From: Desulfobacterales bacterium | Lineage (GTDB): Bacteria > Desulfobacterota > Desulfobacteria > Desulfobacterales > JARGFK01 | Assembly: GCA_029211065.1 (NCBI GenBank) | Contig: JARGFK010000001.1 | Coordinates: 1 to 37,264, forward strand | DNA: 37,264 nucleotides | Direction of reading: 5' to 3' | Part shown: positions 8,999-30,464 of the stretch, one piece after another | How the letters are laid out: each line of letters starts with the position of its first letter | Numbering within the stretch: the stretch's first letter is position 1 | The notes under the pieces: model-generated | What the model saw: only the letters and a program-made list of their open reading frames with translations | Databases searched by the model: none | What the model was told of the DNA's origin: nothing | Program-made: the position numbers and the translations under genes

Positions 8999-9104
8999 GG
9001 CGGTTCCTATAGCATTATTTGCGGTTAAAGCAAATTATTTTTCGGATTCTTCTCCGGATTTCGGCTTCAGGCTATAGACCTGTTCTTCCGACTCCCGAAC
9101 TTCA

Positions 9105-9177
9105 GCCTTGTTGTGTCCGTTGATTGTTGTCCGTTGTCGGTTGCGGTTCCGGACACGGACAACTGACCACGGACAAC
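9105..9177. repeat. Dispersed GGACAACTGACC repeat, inverted arrangement
   Basis: Two ACGGACAAC units separated by TGACC lie at 9155-9177. TTGTTGTCCGTTGTCGG at about 9124-9140 is an opposed copy upstream, so the block can fold back on itself. The 23 nt at 9155-9177 recur exactly at 20380-20402, downstream of btuD. The block sits in the ~220-bp gap downstream of the penicillin-binding protein gene. Confidence 0.6.
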
Positions 9178-9216
9178 CGGTAGTTCTTTCCAACCCTTCA
9201 GCCTATTTACCTACTC

Positions 9217-11175
9217 TCATCGGTTCGGCTCCATCCCCTTTCTGAACATCGCAGAGACTGCATTCTTTGAATTTTCCGGGGCCGGCAGGCCGGTCTGGGG
9301 ATCCATCCGCACCGACACCACGTCGTCGGGAATGTCAAAGTAATGATAAGGCCGGTCGTGATGCGCCTGGCTCATAAACTCAATCCAGGCGGGTAGCGCC
9401 GCCCGGGCCCCGGTTTCACCTCGTCCCAAGGGAGTGAAATCATCATTTCCAACCCAAACGCCGGCGGCGATGGAAGGCGAAAAACCGATAAAAAGGGCGT
9501 CTTTGAAATCATTGGTGGTTCCGGTCTTGCCCCCGAGGGGGAAGGTCAGGCGGACGGCCATTTTTCCGGTTCCTTCTCGAATCACGCCCTGGAGCATATC
9601 GGTAATGATCGCAGCCCCGGTCCGTGACATCGCAAGATGAACCTGGGGTGCCCGCTGCCAGACGGTTCGACCGGCCGTATCCATTACTTTTAATACCCCG
9701 AACGGTTGTATTTTTTTCCCCCGATTGGGAAACACCGCGTAGGCGGATGTCAGATCCATCAGGGTGATTTCCGAGGTTCCCAGTGCCAAGGAAAGATTCG
9801 GCCGCAACGGAGAGTGAATCCCTAAAGAAAAAGCAAAATCGGCGACGGCGGCCGGTCCCAAAGTCTCAATGAGCCTGACGGCCGGGATATTTTCCGATAA
9901 GGCCAGAGCCTTTCGCAGGGTTATTTCCCCCAGATACGTTTTTGAGAAATTTTCAGGCTGCCAGTCATTTCCGTCCTTGGCCCCTTTAAATATTACCGGT
10001 GCATCCAGGATTGTCTGGTTCTGGGAAAAGCCCCGTTCAACGGCCAGGGCATAGACGATCGGTTTAAAGGCCGAACCCGGCTGGCGCAAGGCCATTGTCG
10101 CTCGGTTAAATGGGCTTTGTACGAAATCCCTGCCGCCGGTCATCGCCAGGATGGCGCCGGTCTGAACGTCCAGGGCAACCAGCGCGCACTGGGGCTCCGG
10201 TTGGGCGATGCCGTTTTTTTTCATACGGCCTTCAAGGGATCGCAGACCGCTGATGGCCGCTTGATCGGCTGCTTTTTGCAGATCATGAGAGAGGGTCGTT
10301 ATGACCGTAAGTCCGCCCTTGTATAGTCTATCCGACCCGATGTCATCTTCAAGAAAATTTTTAATATATTCAACAAAGTAGGGGGCGTTCCGGGCAAATT
10401 TACCTTGATCGGGTGTGAGAACCGGTTCAGCAAGCGCCTGCCGGTATTGTGCGTCCGTGATGATATGAATCTCATGCATCTGTCGCAAAACAATATCCCG
10501 GCGTTGTCGGGCAAGCGCTTTGTTAATCAACGGGGAAAACCGTGAGGGCGCTTTGGGCATGGCTGCGATAAGGGCGCACTCCGCCAGGGTCAGCTCGCCG
10601 ATGGGTTTACTGAAAAATATACGCGCAGCAGACGCGACCCCGTAAGCGCCGCTGCCGAAATAGACCTGATTCAGGTACAGCTCCAGGATTTCATCCTTGG
10701 TGTAGCGCCGTTCCAGATGAAATGCCAGCAGGGCTTCTTTGAGCTTGCGGACTATGGTTTTGCGGGGTGTCAGAAAAAGGGTTTTGGAAAGCTGCTGGGT
10801 CAGCGTGCTGGCCCCCTCCACAAACTCACCCGCCCAGATATCTCTTACAATGGCCCGCAGAATACCCTTGAGGTCTATCCCGGTATGCCGGTAAAAGTTT
10901 CTGTCTTCGGTGGCAATCAGGGCTGATTTCAGATAGTCGGGTACCATTTCAAGGGGGACCGGATCCCTTTTTTCAACAAACAGTTCGTCCAGCAGAATAT
11001 TGTCGGCGGAAAATATCTGCGTAGTGGCCGATGGTTTATAAGTTTCCAGGGAACGGATCTGGGGCAGATCGCGGGTCAGGGCGAAAAAAGCCCCCACCGT
11101 CATGCCGCAGGCAATGCCGGCAATAACGATCAGGAGTATGGGGATTTTTAGTTTTTTAAAACCGGTTTTAACCAT
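9217..11175 (-). CDS. mrcA: Class A penicillin-binding protein 1A (glycosyltransferase/transpeptidase)
   Basis: 652 residues from the ATG at 11175 (GGAA about 9 nt upstream). An in-frame TTG at 11223 would add 16 residues and is less likely. A membrane anchor lies at about 12-36. The GT51 domain spans about 45-220, with EDRNFYRHTGIDLKGILRA (catalytic Glu) and GASTLTQQLSK. The transpeptidase domain runs from about residue 330: the S-x-x-K serine is in RQPGSAFKPIVYA, S-x-N is in LSENIPAVRL, and KTGTT follows. The enzyme polymerises lipid II and crosslinks peptidoglycan at the periplasmic face. At about 650 residues it is shorter than E. coli PBP1A (about 850), because it lacks the large inserted OB-type region; compact forms like this are common. 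It appears monocistronic. Confidence 0.93.
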   Translation of the reverse strand: MVKTGFKKLKIPILLIVIAGIACGMTVGAFFALTRDLPQIRSLETYKPSATTQIFSADNILLDELFVEKRDPVPLEMVPDYLKSALIATEDRNFYRHTGIDLKGILRAIVRDIWAGEFVEGASTLTQQLSKTLFLTPRKTIVRKLKEALLAFHLERRYTKDEILELYLNQVYFGSGAYGVASAARIFFSKPIGELTLAECALIAAMPKAPSRFSPLINKALARQRRDIVLRQMHEIHIITDAQYRQALAEPVLTPDQGKFARNAPYFVEYIKNFLEDDIGSDRLYKGGLTVITTLSHDLQKAADQAAISGLRSLEGRMKKNGIAQPEPQCALVALDVQTGAILAMTGGRDFVQSPFNRATMALRQPGSAFKPIVYALAVERGFSQNQTILDAPVIFKGAKDGNDWQPENFSKTYLGEITLRKALALSENIPAVRLIETLGPAAVADFAFSLGIHSPLRPNLSLALGTSEITLMDLTSAYAVFPNRGKKIQPFGVLKVMDTAGRTVWQRAPQVHLAMSRTGAAIITDMLQGVIREGTGKMAVRLTFPLGGKTGTTNDFKDALFIGFSPSIAAGVWVGNDDFTPLGRGETGARAALPAWIEFMSQAHHDRPYHYFDIPDDVVSVRMDPQTGLPAPENSKNAVSAMFRKGMEPNR

Positions 11176-12143: not shown

Positions 12144-12920
12144 CTATTTGAGTTGAAAACGGATCGGTATCTTAACCCACATTTCAATTTTATTCTCCCC
12201 TTCCATACCGGGTTCAAATAACCAGTCTTCAACAGTGGTCCGGGCGGCCTTGTCCAGGGTCGTGTAGCCGCTGGATGAAAATATCTTCATATCCGCGACG
12301 CGGCCGTTTTTATCAATGAAAACTTCGAGTATCACGGTGCCCTGGTAGTTTCTTTTTCGAGCCAGGATGGGATAATGCGGGGGTGGATTGTCGCGATACC
12401 TGGGTTTGGCCTCCCGGATGAGCGGTGGGGCCGGAGTTTGTTCAACAGTCCCGTCCGAACCCGCTTTTTTCTGTTCATCCGTCTTCAGTATTGTCCGGAG
12501 CCGGGGTTCAGGACCGGGTGGGGATGCAGGGACATCCGGTTTTTCTTCCCCGGTTATCGGATCAGGCTTGGAATAGTGAACCGGTTGGCTTTCAGAGATG
12601 AGCTGAGAAGGCATTTGCTTCTCCGGTGGAGGGGGAATCGCCTTAATATCAGAGACACGATCGCGGCCGGATTCTGGTTCTGATTTGGGCGTGGGCTTTG
12701 GTTTTGGTTCGGGTGCAGGTTCAGGTGTTGACTTCGCGGCCGGTTTTGAAAGTTTTGGTGCGGGTTCAGCTTTCGGCATCGGCCGGGACACCAGGGCCAG
12801 GGTCACCATTTGAGGTTTCGGTTTTAAATAAGGTTTTTTCCCCATCCAGCCGAAATCCGCCCACAGAAGATAGGCATGGATCCCCATTGCTATTATTGCT
12901 GACAGCAATATCCGCTTCAA
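12144..12920 (-). CDS. tonB: TonB energy-transducing protein
   Basis: 258 residues. One N-terminal membrane helix (ILLSAIIAMGIHAYLLW, with a His in the helix as in other TonB proteins) is followed by a Pro/Lys/Glu-rich periplasmic spacer at about 35-170 (repeated PEPKP/PKPTP phrases). The C-terminal TonB domain at about 175-258 includes NPPPHYPILARKRNYQGTV, VFIDKNGRVADMKI, SSSGYTTLDKAA and DWLFEPG. It transfers proton-motive force from ExbB/ExbD to the TonB-box of outer-membrane receptors. It is the last gene of the corrinoid unit, 6 nt after exbD. Its placement suggests a dedicated partner for the BtuB encoded upstream, although TonB proteins can serve several receptors. Confidence 0.92.
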   Translation of the reverse strand: MKRILLSAIIAMGIHAYLLWADFGWMGKKPYLKPKPQMVTLALVSRPMPKAEPAPKLSKPAAKSTPEPAPEPKPKPTPKSEPESGRDRVSDIKAIPPPPEKQMPSQLISESQPVHYSKPDPITGEEKPDVPASPPGPEPRLRTILKTDEQKKAGSDGTVEQTPAPPLIREAKPRYRDNPPPHYPILARKRNYQGTVILEVFIDKNGRVADMKIFSSSGYTTLDKAARTTVEDWLFEPGMEGENKIEMWVKIPIRFQLK

Positions 12921-12926
12921 ATCGGG

Positions 12927-13328
12927 CTACTCCCATTCGGCCTGAAGCGAGACGTGATTCAGGCCTGTTGATCGGATTTGATCCAGAACCCGGAAGAGCT
13001 TCTGATAGGTGAGGCTGCGGTCGGCAAACAGGAGCACGCCTGTTTGATGCTTGCCGGCGGCTTTCGCTTTCAGTACGCCGGCCAACTCGGAAAGAGGGAC
13101 CGGTTCTTTGTCCACAAAGGTTGAACCGTCCGCAGTGATGGTGACGGACAGGGTCGTCAGTTTTTCAATTTGGGCAGCGGCGGCGCTCGGCAAACGAACC
13201 GGCAGGCCGCGATGAACGGCCATGGAGAGTATGGCATAGATAAAGAAAACCAGCAGCAGAAACACGATATCGATCAAAGGGATCAGTTCGATGCGAACTT
13301 TACTGCTTTGGTTGAGTTGGATTTTCAT
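12927..13328 (-). CDS. exbD: ExbD/TolR-family proton-channel subunit
   Basis: 133 residues. The single N-terminal membrane helix contains the conserved proton-pathway Asp in LIPLIDIVFLLLVFFIY. A small periplasmic domain follows (about 45-133), with VTITADGSTFVDKEPVPLSE and VLLFADRSLTYQKLFRVLD, as expected for ExbD/TolR. It overlaps the end of exbB by 4 nt, which indicates translational coupling. With ExbB it forms the motor that drives TonB. TolR is the alternative, but the adjacent tonB and btuB and the absence of tolA/tolB favour ExbD. Confidence 0.92.
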   Translation of the reverse strand: MKIQLNQSSKVRIELIPLIDIVFLLLVFFIYAILSMAVHRGLPVRLPSAAAAQIEKLTTLSVTITADGSTFVDKEPVPLSELAGVLKAKAAGKHQTGVLLFADRSLTYQKLFRVLDQIRSTGLNHVSLQAEWE

Positions 13329-13957
13329 GCCGAATCGCCTTTTGGTAATTCTGACTTCTGGAACAGTTTTTCATAAACGATTTCCAGGCTGGTGGCATAT
13401 TTTTCAATATCCAGAACGGCGCCGGCCACGCGTGAATTAAAATAGTTGTAGGGAAAGACCGAAAGAATGGCGATTCCGAGTCCTGCCGCCGTGGTAATCA
13501 GCGCCTGGGCAATACCGGCGGTTACCGCTTCAGGGTGTTCAATGCCGGCAGATCCCAGCATTTCAAATGATGTGATAATGCCAAGCACCGTGCCGAAAAT
13601 ACCCAAGAGCGGGGCAACCGTAATCATGGTGTCCAGCACCCCCATATAGCGGCGCATATTTTTGACCTCATCGGCCGCAGCCGACTCCATGGCCTTGGTC
13701 ATGGAAAATTCACGGTGCAGGATGCCGCTGACAAGAATCCGGATCAGGTAATCTTTTGATCCGGCCACCTTTATTTTGACCGATTCCCAATCGGCGGCCC
13801 GGCAAAGCTCCAAAACCTCATTGACCAGCGACTGGCTTCGCAGCATGTCCAACCGGATCCAAAACATTGCCCGTTCAATGACAACGGTGAGCACAATGAA
13901 GGAGCATGCCAGGAGGGGATACATGACCGGTCCGCCGCTTTTAAATATTTCCAGCAT
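13325..13957 (-). CDS. exbB: ExbB/TolQ-family proton-channel subunit
   Basis: 210 residues with three membrane segments: about 12-30 (VMYPLLACSFIVLTVVIERA), about 105-128 (MITVAPLLGIFGTVLGIITS) and about 145-170 (AGIAQALITTAAGLGIAILS). The motif APLLGIFGTVLGIITSFEML and the ALITTAAGLGIAI helix are characteristic of ExbB/TolQ/MotA. GAGGAG lies about 11 nt upstream of the ATG. It follows cobC by about 24 nt in the same direction and overlaps exbD, so the energising complex appears to be transcribed with the corrinoid genes. Confidence 0.93.
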   Translation of the reverse strand: MLEIFKSGGPVMYPLLACSFIVLTVVIERAMFWIRLDMLRSQSLVNEVLELCRAADWESVKIKVAGSKDYLIRILVSGILHREFSMTKAMESAAADEVKNMRRYMGVLDTMITVAPLLGIFGTVLGIITSFEMLGSAGIEHPEAVTAGIAQALITTAAGLGIAILSVFPYNYFNSRVAGAVLDIEKYATSLEIVYEKLFQKSELPKGDSA

Positions 13958-13981: not shown

Positions 13982-14653
13982 TCATTTCATTTGATGGGAA
14001 ACATGACCCCGGCTGCCGGCGGCCACAAAATTCATCCGTCTCAAGACAGCGAACTCGCCATGGAAACTGAACACATTGAGAGCGCTGTAATCCTGTTCGA
14101 TTCTGAACATATTCTGTAAAGAAACCCCCAGCAGTTCGCAAATAATAATCCGGTTAACCCCTCCGTGGGCGACAATGGCGGTCTTCTTTCCTTTCTCTTT
14201 CTCAATGATGTCGCGGAAGGCCGGCATAACTCTGTCCCGGACAGCTTCGGTGCTTTCCCCGCCGACGGGGAAAAATGTTAGGGGATTGTTTATCCAGGCC
14301 ATGAACTCATCCGGGTATTTACGGTTGATTTCATCAAAGGTCATGCCTTCCCATCGGCCGAAGCCGCGTTCTCTTAAACGGGGAATGATGATCGGTTGCA
14401 ATCCAAAAGAACGGGCGATAATTTCTGCGCTTCTTCTGGAACGTTGCAAGTCTGAACAATAAATGCAACCCAAAGCGTTGCCCGCGCTCCCCGGCAATTG
14501 ACTCTCATTCGCTTCATGAACAAGATGATCTGCCAGACGTCCTATCTGTTTTTCACCTTCTTCAGAAAGCGGCACATCCAGATGGCCTGAGTATCTTTTT
14601 TCTTCCGCGTTGATCGTCAATCCATGACGAATGATATAAACTGTTGTAATCAT
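13982..14653 (-). CDS. cobC: Alpha-ribazole phosphatase (histidine phosphatase family)
   Basis: 223 residues from the ATG at 14653, so the protein begins MITTVYIIRHGLT, the usual family start. An in-frame ATG at 14698 (GAGGTG upstream) lies inside cobS and would add 15 residues; it cannot be excluded. The RHG motif carries the catalytic phospho-His. The family also shows YSGHLDVPLSEEGEKQ, SDLQRSRRSAEII, RERGFGRWEGMTFDEI and VAHGGVNRIIICELL (second His). CobC removes the 5'-phosphate from alpha-ribazole phosphate or adenosylcobalamin phosphate at the end of nucleotide-loop assembly. The family is broad, but the place directly after cobS makes this role likely. Confidence 0.88.
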   Translation of the reverse strand: MITTVYIIRHGLTINAEEKRYSGHLDVPLSEEGEKQIGRLADHLVHEANESQLPGSAGNALGCIYCSDLQRSRRSAEIIARSFGLQPIIIPRLRERGFGRWEGMTFDEINRKYPDEFMAWINNPLTFFPVGGESTEAVRDRVMPAFRDIIEKEKGKKTAIVAHGGVNRIIICELLGVSLQNMFRIEQDYSALNVFSFHGEFAVLRRMNFVAAGSRGHVSHQMK

Positions 14654-14661
14654 ATTTAAAT

Positions 14662-15441
14662 TTAAGTTGGATAGGGCACTAAAAACATGAATAGGCATAA
14701 CACCTCATTCATTTCTGTAATTGCACCTAGATTGTCACCGGTGAGCCCGCCGAATTTTTTTGCAAAGAAGCGCGACATCGAAAAAGAAAAGATATAACAC
14801 GATATGAATATGACGATTATTTTCAGTGGCACCAGCAAGTGAGATGCCATTAATACATTTACAGCGGCAATTCCCGTTGCAAGGCTGGTTGCGACAATCA
14901 ACTCCCTGTGGCCCGTCTGTTCGATGAATATTTTTCCCAAACCATCATCCCGGGCGCTTTTGGCATGAAAGAGGGCCGGGACCATACTCCAGCGGGCGAG
15001 TACCGGGGTTAGGATCAGCACGACGTAAGCGGTTACGCCCGGCATGAAAAAAACATTCTGAAACAGAAGATATTTTATCAGAATAAGGATAACAATGGAA
15101 ACCACACCGATGGGACCGGTGGTGCTGTCCTTCATGATGGCGATCATTCTTTCTTTGCTTTTCCGTGATGCCAGCGCATCAACCGTATCGGAAAGTCCAT
15201 CGATATGAAACCCGCCGTTACTGAGAACAAGTGATGCGACGACAAGTGCGGCAACAATGTCGTTCGGAAATATCCGCACAAAGATCGCATAGACCAGGGC
15301 AAGCAGAAATCCCTGTATCAGGCCTACAATGGGGAAAAAGGCGCTACTTTTGCCGATTTCGTCCGCGCTTGCATGAGCAGACCCGGACGGAACCGGTAAA
15401 ATCGTAAGGAATTGAACTGCGCCAAGTAGTTTCTGCAACAT
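14662..15441 (-). CDS. cobS: Adenosylcobinamide-GDP ribazoletransferase (cobalamin synthase)
   Basis: 259 residues, polytopic membrane protein. The start MLQKLLGAVQFLTILPVP is typical of CobS. The Asp-rich motif GGFHIDGLSDTVDALAS (about 76-92), followed by MKDSTTGPIGV, is the family signature and probably binds Mg2+ and substrate. ALVVASLVLSNGG, GVTAYVVLILTPVLARW and LKIIVIFISCYIF are among the membrane segments. It joins adenosylcobinamide-GDP and alpha-ribazole (phosphate) in the inner membrane. It starts 13 nt after cobT ends. Confidence 0.94.
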   Translation of the reverse strand: MLQKLLGAVQFLTILPVPSGSAHASADEIGKSSAFFPIVGLIQGFLLALVYAIFVRIFPNDIVAALVVASLVLSNGGFHIDGLSDTVDALASRKSKERMIAIMKDSTTGPIGVVSIVILILIKYLLFQNVFFMPGVTAYVVLILTPVLARWSMVPALFHAKSARDDGLGKIFIEQTGHRELIVATSLATGIAAVNVLMASHLLVPLKIIVIFISCYIFSFSMSRFFAKKFGGLTGDNLGAITEMNEVLCLFMFLVPYPT

Positions 15442-15454
15442 CCTTTAACCCTTG

Positions 15455-16510
15455 TTATTTATTCTGATCGGAAACTCCGGCCTCACCGAAGGTCGCCATT
15501 TCCCGATAAATCTTCAGCCCCGCGTCAATAACCGTCATGGCAAGGGCTGCCCCGGTGCCTTCACCCAGTCGAAGATCGAGATTCAGTATCGGCCGTAATT
15601 TCATATGGGCAAGCATGGCCTGATGACCCTTCTCTACCGAATGGTGGGCCGCAAACAAATAATCGGCAACATCAGGGTTCAGGGTATACGCGATCAGGGC
15701 GCCCGCTGTTGAGATGAATCCATCGATAACCACCGGAATGCCCCTTGCGGCAGCTCCCAGACACAAACCGGCGATACCGCCGATTTCGGCGCCGCCGATT
15801 TTTGCCAGCACATCCAGTCCATCCCGGGGATCGGGGCGATTTATCGAAATCGCTTTGGTGATGCCCCGGACTTTATTGTCCAGGGCAATTTCGTCGATAC
15901 CGGTCCCCTTGCCGGTAACATCCGCTACGGATTCTCCGGTGATGACCGCGGCAATTGCCGATGAAGGGGTCGTGTTGGCAATGCCCATTTCACCGGTTGC
16001 AAAGAGCCGATAGCCCCTGTCCGCATATTCCTGCGCCAGCTCCCTGCCGACCTCGATACATCGGACGGCTTCGACAGGCGTCATGGCCGGGCCCTTGATG
16101 ATATTCTTCGTTCCATGGACGACTTTCCTTTTAACCAGTCCCTCCAGGTCGTCAAACTCAAAATTAACCCCGATGTCGATGACCACCACATCCGCCCCGG
16201 CGTGCCGGGCCAGGACGTTGATTCCTGCGCCGCCATGGATGAAATTCAAAACCATCTGGGCTGTCACTTCCTGGGGAAACGCGCTGAAGCCTTCTTCGGC
16301 AACGCCGTGGTCGCCCGCAAAGGTGAAGACCACCTTTTGAGGGATCTCAGGCATTTCAGTGTTGTATATCGCAACCAGTCTGCGGGCAAACTCTTCCAGC
16401 CGGCCGAGACTGCCGGGCGGTTTTGTAAGGTTGTCAAGCCGTTGCTGCGCAAGCGTATATAGCTCGGTTCTTACGGGTCGGATATTTCCAAGCAATTCCT
16501 TCATGTTCAT
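15455..16510 (-). CDS. cobT: Nicotinate-nucleotide-dimethylbenzimidazole phosphoribosyltransferase
   Basis: 351 residues, the usual length. [15 protein letters not shown] (about 28-42) is the N-terminal signature. [50 protein letters not shown] and the C-terminal [13 protein letters not shown] with the catalytic Glu are all present. The enzyme moves phosphoribose from nicotinate mononucleotide to the lower-ligand base (dimethylbenzimidazole or another benzimidazole), giving alpha-ribazole phosphate for CobS. The gene lies between cobU and cobS, 26 nt after cobU, and is co-directional. No bza or bluB gene for base synthesis is seen, so the base is presumably made elsewhere or scavenged. Confidence 0.95.
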
Positions 16511-16536: not shown

Positions 16537-17121
16537 CTATCTTTTCAACTGAAGCGGCAGCCCGCTAACCATCAGATAAACTTCATCGGCAATTTGAGCG
16601 ACCTTTTGATTGAGTCGTCCGGCCATATCCCTGAAAATTCTAGCTGATCTGTTGCCCGGCACGATCCCCATGCCTACTTCATTGGAAACGAAAAAGATGG
16701 AAGATAAATTCTCAAACCGTTGCGGGGATCGTTGAACATCCTGCAACCTGTTCATCAATGTGTCGATTGTTTCGATCACTTTGGTCTCACAATCTGATGT
16801 TTCCGCATGCCCCCCCATCACATTGAATAACCAGAGGGTCAGGCAATCAATAAGGATTACCTGGTAATACGGGCCGTTATTTTCCAGCGTTTCGCCGATT
16901 TCAGAGGAGACTTCCGCAGTATCCCACTCCGGACTGCGCTCCTCCCGGTGCGTCTTGACCCGCTCCGCCATTTCCGCATCCAGCGGCTGCGCCGTGGCGA
17001 TAAAGAGTTTTCTGCCGTCGATCTTTTCGGCCTGGCGAAGGGCAAACGAACTTTTGCCGCTGCGGGCGCCGCCGGTAATAAATATGATCCTGGTCTGTTT
17101 GTTGTTTGAATGTAAATTCAT
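16537..17121 (-). CDS. cobU: Adenosylcobinamide kinase / adenosylcobinamide-phosphate guanylyltransferase
   Basis: 194 residues from the ATG at 17121 (GGTG 8 nt upstream). A GTG three codons earlier is less likely. The P-loop is [34 protein letters not shown] followed by REER carries the His that is guanylylated in CobU enzymes. [13 protein letters not shown] is the Walker B strand. [20 protein letters not shown] followed by [10 protein letters not shown] closes the family pattern. It phosphorylates adenosylcobinamide and then guanylylates it, which is the entry to nucleotide-loop assembly. Confidence 0.94.
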
Positions 17122-17185
17122 AGGTGGCACCTATCCATTGTCGGTAAAAATCAAAATCGCCTGACGGTTTTTCATGGCCGAACGG

Positions 17186-17860
17186 TTAAACGGGCATCAA
17201 ATCACAAAAGTAGAAACGATTGTCCCTTAAAACGATCTCCCCTGTGCGGTGTTCTATGCAGTAGCGAAATATGGGACCGTTATAAGCAAACGAGTGAAAT
17301 TCACCATTTTCCCCACAGGGGTCGACGGTCGCCGGCAAGGCGGACAAAAACTGCTTGTCGAATTTCCGCCCGACAAATGTTTTGTCCAGAAATTGAGAGT
17401 CAACACATGTCACAACAGCGTCAAAAGCCAAAGACAGAATTTTACCAACAAGCTTGCGAGCATTTTTTCCCCAAAGCGGAAATATTCCTTTCATACCAAT
17501 CAGCGCAAGATTTTTTTCCCGATACCTCCTTAAATCTTCAAGGAATATATCACCAAAAGCGATTGCAGAAACACCTTTGTCGCGGTATTTCAGCAAGACC
17601 GTGCGCATTTTTGATTCATATTCGTCATTGGAACAGTTTTTTGCGATATACACCTGCTCGAGGGGCAATCCCAGAGAATCAGCCTGTCTTTCAAGCAATA
17701 TCCGACGCACCCCGTGCATACTGATTCTCTCATATTCTTCCGTGACGGTCGTGATAAGGGAAACTATTTCATAGATTCCAATTCGCATGAGCTCATGGAG
17801 AGCGAGCGCACTGTCTTTTCCCGCACTCCATGATACAATTATTTTTTCTTTATTTGGCAT
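17186..17860 (-). CDS. Dph6-like PP-loop ATP-binding protein in the corrinoid operon
   Basis: 224 residues. SWSAGKDSALAL (about 10-21) is the PP-loop (SGGxDS-type) that binds ATP in N-type ATP pyrophosphatases. The middle segment SAIAFGDIFLEDLRRYREKN and the ending GENGEFHSFAYNGPIF match the pattern of the diphthine-ammonia ligase (Dph6, PF01902) family. Those enzymes adenylate a carboxylate and amidate it. Bacteria do not make diphthamide, so the substrate here must differ. The gene lies between btuB (98 nt upstream) and cobU (64 nt downstream), inside the unit behind the riboswitch. A role in corrinoid side-chain amidation or remodelling is an inference with no direct proof. The start codon has no clear ribosome site. 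Confidence 0.82.
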   Translation of the reverse strand: MPNKEKIIVSWSAGKDSALALHELMRIGIYEIVSLITTVTEEYERISMHGVRRILLERQADSLGLPLEQVYIAKNCSNDEYESKMRTVLLKYRDKGVSAIAFGDIFLEDLRRYREKNLALIGMKGIFPLWGKNARKLVGKILSLAFDAVVTCVDSQFLDKTFVGRKFDKQFLSALPATVDPCGENGEFHSFAYNGPIFRYCIEHRTGEIVLRDNRFYFCDLMPV

Positions 17861-17958: not shown

Positions 17959-19932
17959 CTAAAACGTTTTCAGCTTCACGCCGACATAAACCGAAAGACC
18001 GGGTGTGGCATAACTCCAGGCACTTTCATAGAAGGCGTCAAACAGGTTGTCGATTCTTCCGTAAAGCTGGAGCCATTGATATAAATCGTAAGTAACTGCC
18101 AGATTAACCAGAGAGTAGGCGTCCAGTTTTTCAACCGGGGTGCCGTTTACATCTTTGGCCGAATCGATTTCGCGTCTTTCATCGACCCAGTAATAATCAA
18201 GGTTAAAGACTCCTCTATTAAGAAAACGATATCGCATGTTTGCATAAACCTTGTTATATGGGCGCCGAACCAGCTGATTTCCGTCAGGATCTTCCGTGTC
18301 CGTATAGGTGTAATGGATCGTCAGGTCCAGCGTCGAGGCGGGCGCATATTTGATAAAGGCTTCGATACCCTTTGTCTTTGTGTTGCCCGGGAGCTGGTTG
18401 TATGTTGACGTCGCAAAGTCATAATCAATGCGATCGTCGAAAACCGTGTCAAAATACGTTAGCCCCACTTTGATTTTATTATCGGACAACGGTTGTTCAA
18501 CCCCGACATCCCAGCCTTTGCTTTTTTCCTCTTGTAAATTTTCATTGCCGTAAACCGAATACAACTCGAACAGGGAGGGGGCGCGAAATCCGGTTCCATA
18601 ACTGGCCTTGAGGGTAGTATTGGATGTCGCAAGGGTATAAGCCGGGGCGACGCGATAGGTGGTGGCCCCGCCGAATCTGTCGTGGATATCATAACGCAGT
18701 CCGGCGACAAGATCCAGGCTTTCACCCCAAAACAGTTGGTCCTGGACCCAGAAGCTGGATATATCGGCATCTTTATCAATACTGGAAGACTTGCTCTCCA
18801 GCGCTTCTTTCCAGTAACTTGCCCCCATGTGCAGTAAGTTTACGTCCTGAAAATTCATAGTACCCTGAAAGCCGAATTCATTTGTTTTACCATCGTAGTC
18901 ATAAGCCAGGGTTCCATCTGCGTCAAATCCATCACGGGTGTGCAAAGAACCATTGTAATAAAATGTTGATTCTAAAAAGCGGTCAAAGAAAAAATTGTGG
19001 GCGTCAACCCGGTAATAGGCCTGTTCATTGTCCCATCGCTGTCGTTTGTTGCCGCTTGGATTCGGTGTGGCAGTCCAGAACGGGTCGTAATCCACTTGGT
19101 CAACCAGATAACCGGCATCATATGTCGGCCAGTTGCCGGAATACCAGTCATCCACCCGGACTTCCGAATTCATGTATCGAACGCTGGCATTGATATCAAA
19201 ATCAGGGGTAATATCGTAGCCGAGTTTTCCGGAAAGGGTCGTATTTTTCCAGCCGTCCTTCTCGGATGTATTACCGTTATGCAGGATACGGTCGTTGTCT
19301 GCGTTGGCAATGGAGAATCCATCGGTTTCGGTTCGCGAAAGCGAAAATGAATAATTAAACACATCCAGCCCTCCGTCAGACCCGGCGTAAACCTTCCAGG
19401 TATTATAGGAACCTCCCTCAATACCCCCGTAAACCGAAGGTTTACTTTTGCCCTTCTTGGTGATGATATTAACAACGCCGGCAGTGGCATTGCTGCCGTA
19501 TAAAACGCTCATGGCGCCTCGGACCACTTCAATCCGTTCAATATTATCAATATTCAGATTTCCGATATCGGCGCTGCGATTGGGGGAAGAGGGGTCGTTG
19601 AACACAACACCGTCGATCAGCACCAGGGTGTTTTTGGAATCGGCGCCTCTGATGAAAACAGCGGTTTGGGTGCCGGGCCCTCCCTGCGACTCTATATCAA
19701 GGCCGGGTATTTCTTTCAGCAACTCTGCAACAGATCTTGATTTTTTAGACTCGATATCCTTGGCGGTAATGACTGTAATCGAATTGCCGCCGATTTTGTC
19801 CATCGTTGTTGCACTGCGTGTCGCCGTGACGACTACTTCGGGTAGTGTAACTGGCTGAGCATCAGATGCAGCCAGGCAGATTCTCGACAGGATCAGAGGG
19901 ATACAGATTAAAAACAGTTTGAGGTACTTCAT
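17959..19932 (-). CDS. btuB: TonB-dependent outer-membrane corrinoid receptor
   Basis: 657 residues from the ATG at 19932 (AGGAG 8 nt upstream; a GTG just before is in frame). The signal peptide is about 1-22. The TonB box region is LPEVVVTATR (about 28-37). The plug domain at about 45-165 has SVAELLKEIPGLDIESQGG, FIRGADSKNTLVLIDGV, IERIEVVRGAMSVLYGSNAT and GVVNIITKKG. The 22-strand barrel follows, with YGTGFRAPSLFELYS and the terminal YVGVKLKTF ending in Phe as Omp85 assembly needs. Length and plug match BtuB. Location behind a cobalamin riboswitch and before cob genes makes cobalamin or cobinamide the likely ligand. Confidence 0.92.
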   Translation of the reverse strand: MKYLKLFLICIPLILSRICLAASDAQPVTLPEVVVTATRSATTMDKIGGNSITVITAKDIESKKSRSVAELLKEIPGLDIESQGGPGTQTAVFIRGADSKNTLVLIDGVVFNDPSSPNRSADIGNLNIDNIERIEVVRGAMSVLYGSNATAGVVNIITKKGKSKPSVYGGIEGGSYNTWKVYAGSDGGLDVFNYSFSLSRTETDGFSIANADNDRILHNGNTSEKDGWKNTTLSGKLGYDITPDFDINASVRYMNSEVRVDDWYSGNWPTYDAGYLVDQVDYDPFWTATPNPSGNKRQRWDNEQAYYRVDAHNFFFDRFLESTFYYNGSLHTRDGFDADGTLAYDYDGKTNEFGFQGTMNFQDVNLLHMGASYWKEALESKSSSIDKDADISSFWVQDQLFWGESLDLVAGLRYDIHDRFGGATTYRVAPAYTLATSNTTLKASYGTGFRAPSLFELYSVYGNENLQEEKSKGWDVGVEQPLSDNKIKVGLTYFDTVFDDRIDYDFATSTYNQLPGNTKTKGIEAFIKYAPASTLDLTIHYTYTDTEDPDGNQLVRRPYNKVYANMRYRFLNRGVFNLDYYWVDERREIDSAKDVNGTPVEKLDAYSLVNLAVTYDLYQWLQLYGRIDNLFDAFYESAWSYATPGLSVYVGVKLKTF

Positions 19933-19977
19933 CACATTTTCTCCTTTCCAAAATTAAATTTTGTTTTGGTCCGGAGC

Positions 19978-20017
19978 AAAAAAAATCCCCGGACCGAAAT
20001 TGATTCGATCCGGGGAT
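19978..20017 (-). terminator. Intrinsic terminator in the riboswitch expression platform
   Basis: On the minus strand ATCCCCGGA (20017-20009) pairs perfectly with TCCGGGGAT (19993-19985) around a 15-nt loop, and eight T follow (19985-19978). It sits between the cobalamin riboswitch and the btuB ribosome site, so it most likely stops transcription when B12 is bound. GATCCG inside the aptamer (about 20104-20099) is complementary to CGGATC at the base of the terminator stem, a possible antiterminator (inference). Confidence 0.85.
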
Positions 20018-20420: not shown

Positions 20421-21254
20421 TTATTGACCTGGTCCTTTCGATTTCTGCCCCCCGATCCCCGGTCCCTGATACTTTTTGGGCACCAAGGTTACCCGGGGGA
20501 ACCGGCCGATGGGGCTTTCGTCCACCAGCAGGGTGCAGCCATAAACCGCTTCCAGGGTTTTATAGTTGAGCACATCCTGGGGCGGTCCCAGGGTTACGAT
20601 ACGGCCGCGATTAAGCAGCAGTAGTCGCCGGGCATACATGGCGGCCAGGTTCACGTCATGGGACACCATGACAATGGTGATGTTCTTTTCCGCCCGCAGC
20701 TTTTCCATCAGATCCATGATCTTGATCTGGTGAGCCAGGTCCAGGGCGGCCGTCGGTTCATCTAAAAGGATGATTTGCGGTTCCTGACAGATGGCGCGGG
20801 CAATGTACACCCGTTGGCGTTCACCGCCGCTTAACTCATTCAGTTTGCGGTGCGCGAGATGCGTGGTTTCGGTAAAGGCAATGGCTCTTTGTGCAATTTC
20901 AAAATCTTTTTCCTGCTCCCATCCGAGCAGCCCCAGGTGGGGGGAGCGGCCCATCAATACAATTTCCGTGACGGTAAAGGGAAAATCCAAATCTGCCAGT
21001 TGCGGAACAAAGGCCACCTTTCTGGCAAGTTTTTTGCGCGGGTATAGCTCAAGGGGGCGGCTAAATAATGTCAGCCGGCCCTGGAGCGGTTTAATGATAT
21101 TTGCGATGATTTTCATCAAGGTGGTTTTGCCGGAGCCGTTGGGTCCGATCACAATGAAAAAGTCGCCGGTTTCAATGGAAAAAGATATATCCTGTAGCAC
21201 GGGAAAGTCGCCGTATGAATGGTCGATCTTATGTATATCGATTGCAATCGTCAT
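20421..21254 (-). CDS. btuD: ABC transporter ATP-binding subunit, corrinoid/siderophore type
   Basis: 277 residues. Walker A is IGPNGSGKTTLMK (about 37-49). The Q-loop VAFVPQLADLDFPFTVTEIV, the signature LNELSGGERQRVYIARAI, Walker B QIILLDEPTAALD and the switch His in IVMVSHDVNLAA are intact. The Q-loop and VTEIVLMGR phrase are typical of the FecCD/BtuCD importer family. It powers import of BtuF-delivered substrate through BtuC. The start overlaps the btuC stop by ATGA. The last ~16 residues (GPGIGGQKSKGPGQ) are low in complexity and may be a tail acquired from adjoining repeat sequence. Iron-siderophore transport is the alternative, disfavoured by the context. Confidence 0.9.
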   Translation of the reverse strand: MTIAIDIHKIDHSYGDFPVLQDISFSIETGDFFIVIGPNGSGKTTLMKIIANIIKPLQGRLTLFSRPLELYPRKKLARKVAFVPQLADLDFPFTVTEIVLMGRSPHLGLLGWEQEKDFEIAQRAIAFTETTHLAHRKLNELSGGERQRVYIARAICQEPQIILLDEPTAALDLAHQIKIMDLMEKLRAEKNITIVMVSHDVNLAAMYARRLLLLNRGRIVTLGPPQDVLNYKTLEAVYGCTLLVDESPIGRFPRVTLVPKKYQGPGIGGQKSKGPGQ

Positions 21255-22255
21255 CGCTTGGATGTTTTCATCAAAAATATGAATAAGGGCGCCCCGATCA
21301 TGGCGGTGATGACACCGGCCGGCATCTCACCCTGTTCGGGCAAAATCCTTGCCAGCAGGTCGCAAAGGACCATGTAGGTGCTGCCGCCCAGAATGCAGGC
21401 CGGAACCAGCACGCGGTGGTCCGGGCCCAGCAGCAGGCGCAGCAGATGGGGCATGACCAGGCCCACAAAACCCAGCAGTCCGCTGTGGCTGACGGTTGCG
21501 CTGACCATAAACGACGTGGCGACCAGCAGGGTTACCGTTACCGCCTTTACATGGACGCCCATGGACTGGGCCGGTTCTTTGCCCGCCAGGAGCAGATTCA
21601 TGGGATGGGCAAACCAGAAGATCAGAATCATTCCCGGCAACAGCGTTGCCGCAAGGATTGCAACCTGCCGGGCGTCGACCATGGAAAAATCCCCCATCAG
21701 CCAGAAAATGATATTGTGCAGGCGGCTATCCTGGGTCAACGATACCAGGAACATGATGACCGCCGCGCAAAAGGCATTGACCATCACACCGGACAGCAGC
21801 AGCGATTCTCTTTTAAGAATCGTCTGGCCGGACACCATCATTAAAATCAGCAGGAGGGTGGCCATGCTGCCGATAAAAGCGAAAAGGCTGACGCCGGGAA
21901 AGGGGGATACCCCCAGCAGGATGCCGATAATGGCCCCAATGGCCGAACCTCCTGAAATGCCCAGGATGTATGGTTCGGCCAGGGGATTGCGCAGCAGCGC
22001 CTGAAATACCAGGCCGCCCACCGATAGCGTGGCGCCCACAAGGGCTGCCAGCAGAACCCGGGGCAGACGAATCCGCCAGATGATGGCAGCGAGAGTGGGG
22101 TCAATATCGTTTTTACCCCAAATGGTTTGAACGACGGCTGTCAGGCTGCTCCCGGTTGATCCCGCCGACAGACCCAGCAGCATGGCCGCAAGCAGCAGCA
22201 GGAGCATCACAATTGAGACGGTCATCAGGCGTTTAAGGACAAGGGGTGGTTTCAC
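21251..22255 (-). CDS. btuC: ABC transporter permease, BtuC/FecCD family
   Basis: 334 residues, about ten membrane helices. LPRVLLAALVGATLSVGGLV (about 65-84), followed by FQALLRNPLAEPYILGISGG, is the family hallmark. GLLGFVGLVMPHLLRLLLGP (about 257-276) carries the cytoplasmic coupling loop. The start is a GTG that overlaps the btuF stop (GTGA), and the stop overlaps btuD (ATGA), so the three genes are translationally coupled. It forms the inner-membrane channel for corrinoid import. FecCD-family permeases share these motifs whatever they carry, so the substrate is assigned from context. Confidence 0.9.
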   Translation of the reverse strand: MKPPLVLKRLMTVSIVMLLLLLAAMLLGLSAGSTGSSLTAVVQTIWGKNDIDPTLAAIIWRIRLPRVLLAALVGATLSVGGLVFQALLRNPLAEPYILGISGGSAIGAIIGILLGVSPFPGVSLFAFIGSMATLLLILMMVSGQTILKRESLLLSGVMVNAFCAAVIMFLVSLTQDSRLHNIIFWLMGDFSMVDARQVAILAATLLPGMILIFWFAHPMNLLLAGKEPAQSMGVHVKAVTVTLLVATSFMVSATVSHSGLLGFVGLVMPHLLRLLLGPDHRVLVPACILGGSTYMVLCDLLARILPEQGEMPAGVITAMIGAPLFIFLMKTSKR

Positions 22256-23268
22256 GGCGATTGATTCTCCCTTATAAGATCAGGGTGGATCAGTCCTGCC
22301 AGCAGCTCAAGGGCATCCACCAGGCGGGGTGACGGACGGTCGAAAAGATTAGAGTCCGTGATGAAGATTTTCCGGTTTTGGACCGCGGGCATGTTGGGCC
22401 AGCGCGACCACTCTTCTTTGACACGTTCAAAAATATCGGTTCTGGCCATGGAGGTGATGATAATGACGTCCGGCGAAAGCCCCAGGACCTGTTCCCGGCT
22501 GAATCGGGGATATGGGGTATCGCCTGCCGCCAGATTTCTCCCCCCTGCTTTTTCGATCAGTTCGTGGATAAAGGTGGGCGTCCCCACGGAAACAATCGGT
22601 GAAATCCCAATCTGGAAAAAAACGCCGGGCCGGCCGGCGGCTTTGGAAACGTTTGTCTGAACACGCGCGACCCTGGCTTGCATGGTTTGTACCAGGTCCC
22701 GGGCGGTATTTTCGGCCTGCATCAGCCGGCCGATTGCCAGGATGGTTTCCATGACCGAATTTAAATTGCGGGGGTCTAAGGCGTAAACGGCTATCCCCAT
22801 TGATTCGAGTCGTTCCACTACTGACCTTGGATTTCCATCCTTGATCGCAATGCAAAGGTCCGGCTTCAAGGCCACAATGCGCTCCAGGTCCAATTGCACA
22901 TAGGAACCCACCTTGGGTAATTTCCGGGCCTCAACCGGGTAATCGCTGAATTGGGTGACGCCTTTCAAGCGATGTTCCTGTTTCAATGCAAAGATTATTT
23001 CAGTGATATTGGGCGCCAATGCGATGACGCGCCGGGGGTCGGCAGGCACCTTGACCGACCGGCCCAGCAGGTCCGTTACGACCGTATAGGTTGCGGCAAA
23101 GGCTGTGGGGGGAAACAGTCCACCCGCCACCAAAGAAAAAATGACCAAACAGCAGGCTGAACTGATGGCGGATTTGATTGCGCCAATCTTTACCTGCAAC
23201 TTCTCTAAAACCGGCTGCAATAAAAAACCCGGACTGAAATCGATCAATCCGGGATATTCTTTATTCAT
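22252..23268 (-). CDS. btuF: Periplasmic corrinoid-binding protein, BtuF-like
   Basis: 338 residues from an ATG preceded by GAGGGGAAGACA. The N-terminus is longer than usual: about 35 residues precede the hydrophobic signal core (SACCLVIFSLVAGGLFPPTAFA, about 38-59), so an internal start is possible. The mature protein has the BtuF/FecB fold: VTDLLGRSVKVPADPRRVIA, LAPNITEIIFAL, GVTQFSDYPVEARKLPKVGS, DLERIVALKPDLCIA, IAVYALDPRNLNSVMETI, and FSREQVLGLSPDVIII. GVTQFSDYP and VGSYVQLDLERI resemble cobalamin-binding BtuF more than siderophore-binding members. It delivers corrinoid to BtuCD and is the first gene of the btuFCD unit, outside the riboswitch. Confidence 0.88.
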   Translation of the reverse strand: MNKEYPGLIDFSPGFLLQPVLEKLQVKIGAIKSAISSACCLVIFSLVAGGLFPPTAFAATYTVVTDLLGRSVKVPADPRRVIALAPNITEIIFALKQEHRLKGVTQFSDYPVEARKLPKVGSYVQLDLERIVALKPDLCIAIKDGNPRSVVERLESMGIAVYALDPRNLNSVMETILAIGRLMQAENTARDLVQTMQARVARVQTNVSKAAGRPGVFFQIGISPIVSVGTPTFIHELIEKAGGRNLAAGDTPYPRFSREQVLGLSPDVIIITSMARTDIFERVKEEWSRWPNMPAVQNRKIFITDSNLFDRPSPRLVDALELLAGLIHPDLIRENQSP

Positions 23269-28736: not shown

Positions 28737-29949
28737 GATCGAATTGCTGGCGCCGGCAGGCAATTTTGAAAAACTTGAAGTTGCCATTCATTTCGGGGCG
28801 GACGCAGTCTACCTGGGGGGAAAGGATTATAGCCTCCGGAATTTTTCAGGAAACTTTACCCTTGATGAGCTCAGGTCGGCCGCAGCCCTTGCCCATGCAG
28901 GCGGTGTACGGGTCTACCTGGCCTGCAATATTTATTCACGCAATGCCGAGCAGCCGGCGATACGGCGCTATCTTGAAATGCTGAGCGATATGGAGATTGA
29001 CGGCCTGATCGTTTCTGATCCCGGCATCATTGCAGCGGCGCGTCAAATTGTCCCGCACATTCCGCTGCATTTAAGCACCCAGGCCAATACGACCAATTAT
29101 AACAGTGCGCTGTTCTGGAAAAATCAGGGCATTAAAAGAATTGTCATGGCCCGGGAGCTGTCGCTGGCTGAAGCCGGTGAGATGGTCGCACAGTCCGGTC
29201 TGGAGGTGGAGGCGTTTGTGCATGGGGCCATGTGCATCTCGTATTCCGGCAGGTGTCTGCTGAGTAATTTTATGGCGAACCGCGACAGCAATCAAGGCAT
29301 GTGCTGCCACCCCTGCCGGTGGAAGTACGCGGTCATGGAAGAAACGCGTCCCGGACAGTACATGCCCATCAGCGAAGACGAGCGCGGGACTTATATTTTC
29401 AATTCAAGCGACCTGTCTATGATTGCGCATATCCCTGAACTGATCCAGACGGGACTGACGGCGCTGAAAATTGAGGGACGCATGAAAGGCATCCATTACG
29501 TCGCCGCTACGGTAAAAGTGTACCGCGAAGCCATTGATGCATATTATAAAAATCCGCTACAGTATGAGTTCAGAGAGGAATGGCTTAGGGAACTCAACAG
29601 CATCAGCCACCGCGGCTACAGTACCGGATTTTATTTCGGCGAACCGGACGGGGCGTCGCGCTGTAATGGGGGCGCTGAAAACGAAAGTAAACCGCTTTTC
29701 ATCGCTAAAGTGCTGGACCCAATCAACCCGCAACAGGTGAAGGTGGACGCCCGCAACAAGTTTTTTAAAGGGGATCGGGTTGAAATCCTCAAACCAGGCA
29801 GCCCGGTCCATACCGACATCATCGCAGCGATTTTCGATGAAAACGGGCACTCGATACCGTGCGCTCAGCCCGGTTCAAAGGTTTCGGTTTCACTCGGGAC
29901 GGACTGCGCGCGCAATGATCTCATCAGAAAGGCAGGCGGGCACCCATGA
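28717..29949 (+). CDS. U32-family peptidase / tRNA or rRNA hydroxylation protein
   Basis: 410 residues. RIELLAPAGNFEKLEVAIHF followed by GADAVYLGGKDYSLRNFSGNF is the standard N-terminal start of the U32 family. HLSTQANTTNYNSALFW and RIVMARELSLAE continue the TIM-barrel pattern. The signature EAFVHGAMCISYSGRCLLSN and MCCHPCRWKYAV carries the four conserved cysteines that can hold an iron-sulfur cluster. SSDLSMIAHIPEL and LTALKIEGRMKGIHYVA follow. E. coli relatives TrhP and RlhA hydroxylate tRNA U34 or 23S rRNA C2501, and others were described as collagenases; TrhP-like is my best guess from length and motifs. It overlaps rmlD (20 nt) and cobO (4 nt), so all are probably co-transcribed. Confidence 0.88.
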   Translation: MLTKTDRIELLAPAGNFEKLEVAIHFGADAVYLGGKDYSLRNFSGNFTLDELRSAAALAHAGGVRVYLACNIYSRNAEQPAIRRYLEMLSDMEIDGLIVSDPGIIAAARQIVPHIPLHLSTQANTTNYNSALFWKNQGIKRIVMARELSLAEAGEMVAQSGLEVEAFVHGAMCISYSGRCLLSNFMANRDSNQGMCCHPCRWKYAVMEETRPGQYMPISEDERGTYIFNSSDLSMIAHIPELIQTGLTALKIEGRMKGIHYVAATVKVYREAIDAYYKNPLQYEFREEWLRELNSISHRGYSTGFYFGEPDGASRCNGGAENESKPLFIAKVLDPINPQQVKVDARNKFFKGDRVEILKPGSPVHTDIIAAIFDENGHSIPCAQPGSKVSVSLGTDCARNDLIRKAGGHP

Positions 29950-30464
29950 AAAAAGGTTATGTTCAGGTCTATACCGGGGATGGAAAGGGCAAGACCACGG
30001 CCGCCCTGGGGCTTGCCCTGCGGGCGGCCGGAGCCGGATTAAAGGTTTATATCTGCCAGTTTATGAAAATCGGTGATTATAGTGAAATCAAATCGTTGAA
30101 ACGATTTTCAGACATGATCAGCATTGAACAGTTTGGAATCGGCAAGTTCGTCAAGGGCCTCCCTGCACCAGAAGACATGGCGGCGGCTCGCAGGGGTCTC
30201 GAAAAAGCAAGGGGAGCGATGGAATCCGGCCAATACGGGTTGATCATACTGGAAGAAGCCAATGTTGCGGTGCATTTCGGATTGTTTCCGGTTGAGGAAC
30301 TGTTAAACCTTATCGCTGATAAACCCGAAGGGGTTGAAATAATCATCACCGGTCGGGGCGCCCGCCCTGAGATTATAGATCGGGCGGACCTGGTTACCGA
30401 AATGAAGAGTGTTAAACATTATTTTGATAAAGGGGTAGCCGCCCGTACCGGTATCGAAAAGTAA
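29946..30464 (+). CDS. cobO: Corrinoid adenosyltransferase (CobA/CobO/BtuR type)
   Basis: 172 residues. KGYVQVYTGDGKGKTTAALG is the P-loop that starts the family. VYICQFMKIGDYSEI, EAREAMESG-like EKARGAMESGQYGLIILEEA and VEIIITGRGARPEIIDRADL followed by VTEMKSVKHYFDKGVAARTG are the remaining signatures. The enzyme moves the adenosyl group of ATP to cob(I)alamin or cob(I)inamide, and would supply adenosylcobinamide to CobU. It is separate from the main corrinoid locus: it overlaps the U32 gene (ATGA), and no riboswitch precedes it here, so it seems not to be under the same B12 control. Confidence 0.93.
   Translation: MKKGYVQVYTGDGKGKTTAALGLALRAAGAGLKVYICQFMKIGDYSEIKSLKRFSDMISIEQFGIGKFVKGLPAPEDMAAARRGLEKARGAMESGQYGLIILEEANVAVHFGLFPVEELLNLIADKPEGVEIIITGRGARPEIIDRADLVTEMKSVKHYFDKGVAARTGIEK

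Follow-up and report, generated by a model that had tools for sequence, protein, structure and literature searches.

Why should a bacterium keep, in the middle of a cobalamin (B12) salvage operon, a gene whose product resembles diphthine-ammonia ligase? To our knowledge, the reaction of that ligase answers no need in bacteria. The locus lies on a contig of a Desulfobacterales bacterium, of which 37,264 nucleotides were analysed (hereafter the window). According to the sections of de Crecy-Lagard et al. (2012; PMC3541065) that deal with this family, diphthamide is absent from bacteria, and the predicted reaction of the ligase Dph6 consists in the adenylation of a carboxylate, which is then passed to ammonia. 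The first-pass annotation, made from the sequence of the window, had described a Dph6-like PP-loop ATPase gene flanked by btuB and cobU and preceded by a cobalamin riboswitch, and had proposed that its product either amidates a corrinoid carboxylate or attaches the aminopropanol arm.

The interval given for the gene, 17186-17860, proved right and its strand is the minus strand: frame 1 of the plus strand is interrupted by four stops, and the minus-strand frame starts with an ATG at 17860 and encodes 224 aa. Family searches and the RF00174 match (Table 1) confirm both its neighbours, btuB and cobU, and the cobalamin riboswitch that precedes them. On the minus strand, the order is riboswitch, hairpin, btuB, the PF01902 gene, cobU, cobT, cobS, a cobC-like gene, two ORFs which, from gene order, we take to be exbB-like and exbD-like, and tonB; immediately upstream of the riboswitch, and in the same orientation, come the btuF-, btuC- and btuD-like genes. 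The hairpin located between the riboswitch and btuB is likely the expression platform of the riboswitch. The gaps flanking the PF01902 gene measure 98 bp towards btuB and 55 bp towards cobU, and a scan of both for terminators revealed no minus-strand terminator-like site in either; a weak one was seen inside the PF01902 gene itself (17377-17354, nine pairs, three of them G-C). Co-transcription of these genes as one operon is likely. With a G+C content of 43.9% (third position 45.3%), compared with 47.1-58.2% in 11 other genes of the B12 cluster, the PF01902 gene is the lowest of the 12 genes compared, which may reflect a later arrival.

Table 1. Features of the B12 salvage locus in the window, and DUF6580 copies at other loci
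Feature	Position	Strand	Basis or remark
TonB family protein	12144..12920	-	family searches
exbD-like	12927..13328	-	label presumed from gene order
exbB-like	13325..13957	-	label presumed from gene order
cobC-like histidine phosphatase	13982..14698	-	156.9 bits, just below TIGR03162 cut-off of 162.9
cobS, cobamide synthase	14662..15441	-	family searches
cobT, DMB phosphoribosyltransferase	15455..16510	-	family searches
cobU, cobinamide kinase/guanylyltransferase	16537..17130	-	family searches
PF01902 PP-loop ATPase (clade A), 224 aa	17186..17860	-	ORF, Pfam, tree, structural model
btuB-like TonB-dependent receptor	17959..19935	-	best NCBIfam model TIGR01779, 294.6 bits, below cut-off of 599.7
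Terminator-like hairpin, 14 pairs and T run	19985..20017	-	between riboswitch and btuB
Cobalamin riboswitch aptamer RF00174	20064..20293	-	81.8 bits, E 7.8e-19
btuD-like ABC ATPase	20421..21254	-	ABC_tran match; btuD label presumed from gene order
btuC-like permease	21251..22255	-	label presumed from gene order
btuF-like binding protein	22252..23268	-	best NCBIfam model BtuF, below its cut-off
CobA/BtuR corrinoid adenosyltransferase	29946..30464	+	family searches
DUF6580 copies at other loci	L100:11732-12256; L118:10662-11246; L123:5356-5904; L139:2578-3207; L160:1493-2122		five more loci also carry a copy

The window protein matches Pfam PF01902 over nearly its full length (E 1.4e-37, 129.8 bits; gathering cut-off 23.2). 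This was its sole Pfam match at E 0.001, the adenosyltransferase domains PF02572 and PF01923 being absent, and it is the single PF01902 match of the window genome. The PP-loop motif SWSAGKDSALAL is present and, as claimed, intact except at position 13, which is Ala in the window protein only (the other rows of clade A, defined below, that have a residue there show 65 Gly, 20 Ser and 1 Thr). The motif CGENGEFHSFAYNGPIF was likewise found, although at residues 182-198 and not at the very end of the protein. A predicted structure of the window protein (pLDDT 96.7) could be superimposed with residues 5-224 on the structure of PF0828 (3rk1_A; Z 25.0, 206 aligned, rmsd 2.2) and also on that of PH1257 (Z 26.1, 205 aligned, rmsd 2.1). 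Both the PP-loop domain and the C-terminal domain of PF0828 are matched by the full-length model, the residues of the PP-loop and the C-terminal motif are kept between the window protein and the Dph6 structures, and GMP and argininosuccinate synthases were among the structure matches. Thus, the window protein shares with Pyrococcus Dph6 (PF0828, PH1257) a predicted full-length fold and the PP-loop residues, and is related to it in sequence (phmmer, E 3.1e-18). It differs, however, in carrying GENGEFH instead of the Dph6 motif EGGE/D-X-E with Glu188, the equivalent residue being His189, and it scores 89.1 bits against the NCBIfam equivalog Dph6_archaeal, below the cut-off of 197.3. Motif and cut-off rule out its identity as Dph6, and the His in place of the predicted catalytic Glu188 may indicate a different chemistry.

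In the 2012 study, the sections on PF01902/COG2102 distinguish, besides Dph6, a subgroup named DUF71-B12 with the signature ENGEF/YH and His instead of Glu188; 75 of 102 DUF71-B12 genes adjoin B12 transporter genes and 18 of 102 adjoin cbiB (PMC3541065). A CbiZ-like role was proposed there because genomes with CbiB, with few exceptions, had CbiZ or DUF71-B12 and, in bacteria, not both (PMC3541065). In their passages on the family, PMC8305020, PMC5481537 and PMC5041015 cite this B12 prediction and give no test, a table entry of 2016 reading 'function unknown, B12 salvage' (PMC5041015), and our literature searches found neither a test of the predicted function of B12-linked PF01902 proteins nor anything apt on corrinoid amide repair. 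The B12 association of bacterial PF01902 proteins has therefore been in print since 2012 and is not a discovery of this window, whose protein, with ENGEFH at residues 184-189, is a member, or a near member, of the known but uncharacterised DUF71-B12 group.

Homologues were drawn from two samples, namely 247 genomes of the phylum, 38 of which have a PF01902 protein, and a scan of named genomes, which yielded 587 relatives; 80 of these loci, with best-segment identities of 45-68%, were retained. In a quick tree built from 116 proteins, 89 rows, including the window protein, formed a clade A (SH-aLRT 99), the remaining 27 rows being termed clade B. The tree leaves out L093 (same contig as L034), L047 and L088 (both partial) and L072; furthermore L054, clade B by identity, has a very long branch and is placed next to clade A, though not within the branch supported at 99, and B makes up one side of the tree only when L054 is set aside. 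The sequence Gly-Glu-x-Gly-Glu-Phe/Tyr-His is kept nearly throughout both clades, and the His at the Dph6 Glu188 position is found in 88/88 clade A and 26/26 clade B rows with a residue there.

Linkage to B12 genes was scored from BLAST hits of window proteins and of CbiB and CbiZ references within about 4 kb, combined with a B12-box pattern and a reading of the neighbourhoods; B12-box hits did not qualify L041, L130 and L131 as linked, and L092 was counted although there the riboswitch follows the PF01902 gene and precedes btuB. So scored, 24 of the 27 clade B loci (including L071 of G053, from outside the phylum sample) and 23 of the 89 clade A loci were B12-linked. The first-pass annotation had suggested such a survey of homologue neighbourhoods, and had regarded a lack of corrinoid genes elsewhere as an argument against its reading. 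The outcome was divided, as the association was recovered in both clades and yet 66/89 clade A loci were unlinked, as were 7 of the 10 nearest named homologues; 27 of the 68 unlinked clade A loci have less than 3 kb on one side. The window protein falls into a clade other than that of the strongly B12-linked sequences of its own phylum, a distinction that is new here. It is like DUF71-B12 in its motif, in the His for Glu188, in its B12 salvage neighbours and in a genome without CbiZ, but unlike it in belonging to a clade that is only partly B12-linked and stands apart from clade B (SH-aLRT 99 in the quick tree, in which it is set against the clade B of the phylum). It also differs in that its genome lacks CbiB, on which the 2012 hypothesis rests, and does not show the expected pattern of CbiB without CbiZ.

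Within clade A, the linked rows are scattered, with 18 changes on the tree compared with 21.3 for shuffled labels, where 12 of 500 shuffles gave a value this low. A single clade for 22 linked rows was rejected (p-AU 1.2e-8, with labels set from gene neighbourhoods), and 16-18 changes of linkage are needed on the clade A tree. Among the neighbours of unlinked genes no Pfam family occurred in more than three (63 scanned of 68 close same-strand neighbours), and no alignment column clearly separates linked from unlinked members. Because linkage is scattered and the unlinked genes have no recurrent neighbour, either the whole of clade A serves B12, in many cases from a locus of its own, or B12 operons have repeatedly taken in an enzyme of general function. 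A rival reading, in which the protein is a widely distributed enzyme for housekeeping or repair outside B12 metabolism and only happens to stand in the B12 operons of some genomes, would account for the unlinked majority, for the lack of a common neighbour and of a separating column, and for a single case (L096) in which a TPP riboswitch (8850-8952) lies upstream of an ORF (9008-9805) preceding the clade A gene (from 9998), a finding that would fit a role outside B12. We nevertheless consider it rather unlikely, as linkage must have been gained or kept many times and core B12 genes cluster close to it: across 79 clade A loci of named genomes, ORFs resembling BtuF, BtuC, CobU, CobT, CobS, CbiB or CbiZ numbered 17 within 2 kb, four at 2-4 kb, four at 4-6 kb and none at 6-10 kb. 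Moreover, two riboswitches directly precede the PF01902 gene, at 1424-1628 in L139 (gene from 1926) and at 9648-9852 in L149 (gene from 9941), and DUF6580, described below, was found at linked loci only. An Rfam cobalamin riboswitch was present in 14/21 linked named loci compared with 0/26 unlinked loci examined (of 68), a contrast which arises partly by construction, and the order riboswitch-btuB-PF01902 recurs in L100, L106, L108, L116 and L123, named genomes of several phyla. The riboswitch operon, the linkage of clade B and the repeated linkage in clade A support the suggested role in B12 salvage, and the window protein probably serves B12 salvage of some kind.

Examination of the neighbours of linked clade A genes brought up a membrane protein of the DUF6580 family (PF20221). 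An HMM built from five copies and run against the ORFs of at least 80 aa of the window and of L034-L073 and L086-L165 detected DUF6580 at 10 loci, every one of which is a B12-linked locus of clade A (10/23 linked versus 0/68 unlinked; 10/21 linked named loci). In seven of these it is directly adjacent to the PF01902 gene (gap -65 to 43 bp), and in L100, L116 and L156 the distance is at most 2.2 kb, the L116 copy standing ahead of the riboswitch. Viral contigs, plasmids and NCBIfam yielded no DUF6580, and a literature search found no paper naming it. Foldseek with a structural model of DUF6580 (from nine sequences, pLDDT 89.1) gave no match at E 0.001; its top two rows were BtuM (E 0.18 and 0.23), followed by ECF S-components. 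In VIA-align 2, the model aligned best with BtuM (8ovv; Z 14.0, 157 aligned, rmsd 3.0), S-components reaching Z 9.6-12.4 and unrelated proteins 6.0, although by the tool's own note a Z of 14 is not decisive for a helical protein. The order of the matches and the B12 context agree that the predicted fold of DUF6580 is closest to that of the B12 transporter BtuM, without being decisive, and DUF6580 is a candidate for a new B12 permease family.

Pairs of a permease with a trapping enzyme exist for other vitamins, as in PnuC with its kinase. The PF01902 protein could by analogy modify newly imported cobamide at the expense of ATP, for example by adenylation or amide formation, thereby retaining it inside the cell and serving permeases such as the BtuM-like DUF6580. 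The seven directly adjacent and three nearby DUF6580 genes speak for such trapping, as does the occurrence of BtuC near 1/10 DUF6580 loci versus 6/11 other linked named loci (p 0.063). Against it, the window encodes BtuFCD-like proteins, the HMM gave no DUF6580 match in its ORFs of at least 80 aa, and a modified cobamide would have to stay active. We regard trapping as improbable.

The set of corrinoid genes in the carrier genomes bears on the remaining explanations. The window genome (completeness 100, contamination 4.29%) has CobA, CobU, CobT, CobS and the transporters and, genome-wide, no CbiP over the cut-off, no CbiB and no CbiZ, so that the absence of the latter two, first remarked for the window, extends to the whole genome. 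It can salvage cobinamide and cobamides, and it can neither synthesize the ring nor use cobyric acid by any known route. Among the 12 clade A genomes of the phylum, none has CbiP or CbiZ, three have CbiB, eight, including the window genome, have CobS and all 12 have CobA or PduO. CbiP is thus found in 0/12 clade A genomes versus 142/235 others of the phylum sample (p 2.4e-5); counted by family, all nine clade A families are among the 28 of 89 without CbiP over the cut-off (p 1.1e-5), with CbiP pieces at contig ends in G125, G163 and G175 below the cut-off and uncounted, and the family of G125 being one of the 28. A further 49 named clade A genomes, hand-picked from the 80 loci, with background rates that are not phylum-matched and completeness not given, comprised five with CbiP over the cut-off, five with CbiB (one a weak match) and 11 with CobS. 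In the 20 of them that are B12-linked, CobS occurs in two (L138, L156), CbiB in one (L138) and CbiP in two (L125, L138). Clade B genomes, in contrast to these, have CobS in 24/27 and CbiB in 19/27, the 27 including G223 (fragment only) and G133 (both clades).

The CbiZ-like proposal of 2012 sees the protein as an enzyme that converts unwanted cobamides, pseudo-B12 for instance, into cobyric acid by cleavage or assists in their recycling; rebuilding from cobyric acid is then left to CbiB and the loop assembly genes. The motif, the clustering and the anti-correlation with CbiZ as set out in that study argue for it (PMC3541065). In our phylum sample, CbiZ likewise occurred in 1/38 PF01902-positive genomes versus 47/209 others (p 0.003), and the genomes of clade B mostly possess the CobS and CbiB that the proposal requires. 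For the window genome, however, cobyric acid would be a dead end as CbiB is missing, and CbiB is missing also in 9/12 phylum and 44/49 other clade A genomes, and CobS in 18/20 linked ones. For a genome unable to close the loop, neither loop opening nor the addition of aminopropanol has an evident use, and most of the linked clade A genomes are in this position. This distribution, which is the main new argument presented here, argues against the published hypothesis for clade A, for which we hold it distinctly improbable, and leaves it open for clade B, in which a CbiZ-like role is plausible though 8/27 genomes are without CbiB. CbiZ and CbiR share with the window protein the setting of corrinoid salvage but belong to other families, CbiZ to PF01955 and CbiR, as described in the relevant part of PMC7733943, to the AP endonuclease 2 superfamily, and their products need a loop assembly that is missing in most linked clade A genomes.

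The sole exception to the anti-correlation among the 38 genomes is L051 (G234), in which CbiZ, CbiB and a clade B PF01902 gene stand in one cluster. Many CbiZ matches of the phylum (e.g. L084) lie in open frames of about 670-820 residues compared with a model of 191 positions, suggesting fusions. A CbiZ label at L156 was found to be false, caused by a long CbiZ reference, as Pfam identifies the protein as a periplasmic binding protein.

The second half of the original proposal, attachment of the aminopropanol arm, is disfavoured by the same counts. A replacement for CbiB, joining aminopropanol or its phosphate to cobyric acid, would suit a window genome that has CobU, CobT and CobS without CbiB, and ATP-dependent amide-forming enzymes do share the PP-loop fold. 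Cobinamide salvage by CobU, CobT and CobS needs no CbiB, however, and the window genome lacks CbiP, so cobyric acid would have to be imported; in the 18/20 linked clade A genomes without CobS the resulting cobinamide would be useless, and clade B mostly coexists with CbiB. This activity is therefore very improbable. Rejected altogether was a new ATP:corrinoid adenosyltransferase, an idea suggested by an ATP-binding family adjoining B12 transport genes, because the window encodes CobA, which makes the PP-loop protein dispensable for adenosylation, and all 12 phylum clade A genomes have CobA or PduO.

What, then, might the protein do? Corrinoids bear amidated carboxylates, and mild hydrolysis of B12 yields monocarboxylic acids. 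As most linked clade A genomes lack both CobS (18/20) and CbiB (19/20), the product must be usable without loop assembly, and repair of a side chain fits this demand. We tentatively propose, as a possibility, that the PF01902 protein is an ATP-dependent enzyme restoring a side-chain amide on deamidated imported corrinoids, and amidation of a corrinoid carboxylate, the other half of the original proposal, is possible in that it agrees with the way the genes are distributed and with the chemistry to be expected of PF01902 proteins. In such a scheme, BtuB with TonB and BtuFCD would import corrinoids, which CobA would adenosylate, CobU, CobT, CobS and CobC would turn cobinamide into cobamide, and the riboswitch would presumably stop the operon when B12 is plentiful. 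The PP-loop protein would adenylate a carboxylate of an imported corrinoid and the AMP would be replaced by an amine, most simply ammonia, so that the amide of a putatively acid-damaged or incompletely amidated corrinoid would be restored. The enzyme would then act in repair or conditioning of scavenged B12 in cells without the biosynthetic amidase CbiP. A repair ligase fits the observed pattern because it would be useful to importers of cobamides that lack CbiP, needs no loop assembly and sits with transport genes. The shortage of CbiP in clade A and the BtuM-like DUF6580 near linked genes also speak for it. CbiP/CobQ, the cobyric acid synthase, would offer a parallel in the ATP-dependent amidation of corrin carboxylates proposed here, but it is of another family (TIGR00313), is biosynthetic and exceeds its cut-off in none of the phylum clade A genomes and in 5/49 elsewhere, so that clade A is not a strict substitute for it.

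Several observations weigh against the repair reading. The 66/89 unlinked loci, the 26/26 examined unlinked loci without a riboswitch and the lack of a separating column could reflect a general function of the clade, and in the phylum CbiB is absent from only 9/12 clade A genomes and CobS is present in 8/12, including the window genome. Extended to the clade, the repair reading would make clade A a corrinoid-conditioning ligase for importers of intact cobamides, forming with DUF6580 or BtuCD a riboswitch-controlled uptake unit and re-amidating or otherwise modifying corrinoids at the cost of ATP, a broader idea that we consider unlikely. The clade A distribution argues that, for this clade, the CbiZ-like hypothesis is not the whole story, and it narrows the task to intact imported corrinoids. 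De novo producers of B12 make up 37% of bacteria in the estimate quoted from PMC6461909. If true, the broader idea would add a damage-repair enzyme for vitamin B12, together with DUF6580 as a further B12 transporter family, and confirmation of the ligase or of the permease-plus-enzyme pair would show how bacteria that do not build B12 use damaged environmental corrinoids.

Further PF01902 sequences were observed outside the main comparison. Plasmid records contained 20 with PF01902 matches at up to 46% identity, several of them named diphthine-ammonia ligase. In L102, an ORF at 9150-10001 that overlaps the start of the clade A gene shows a weak similarity of its own to PP-loop proteins (PF01171, E 9.4e-5). 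The phylum has a second B12-linked gene in clade A, L042:1249-1656 (G185), which adjoins cobU and has an in-frame TGA directly after a conserved FPL; it was used as found, shortened by this stop, which may represent a pseudogene, a sequencing error or recoding.
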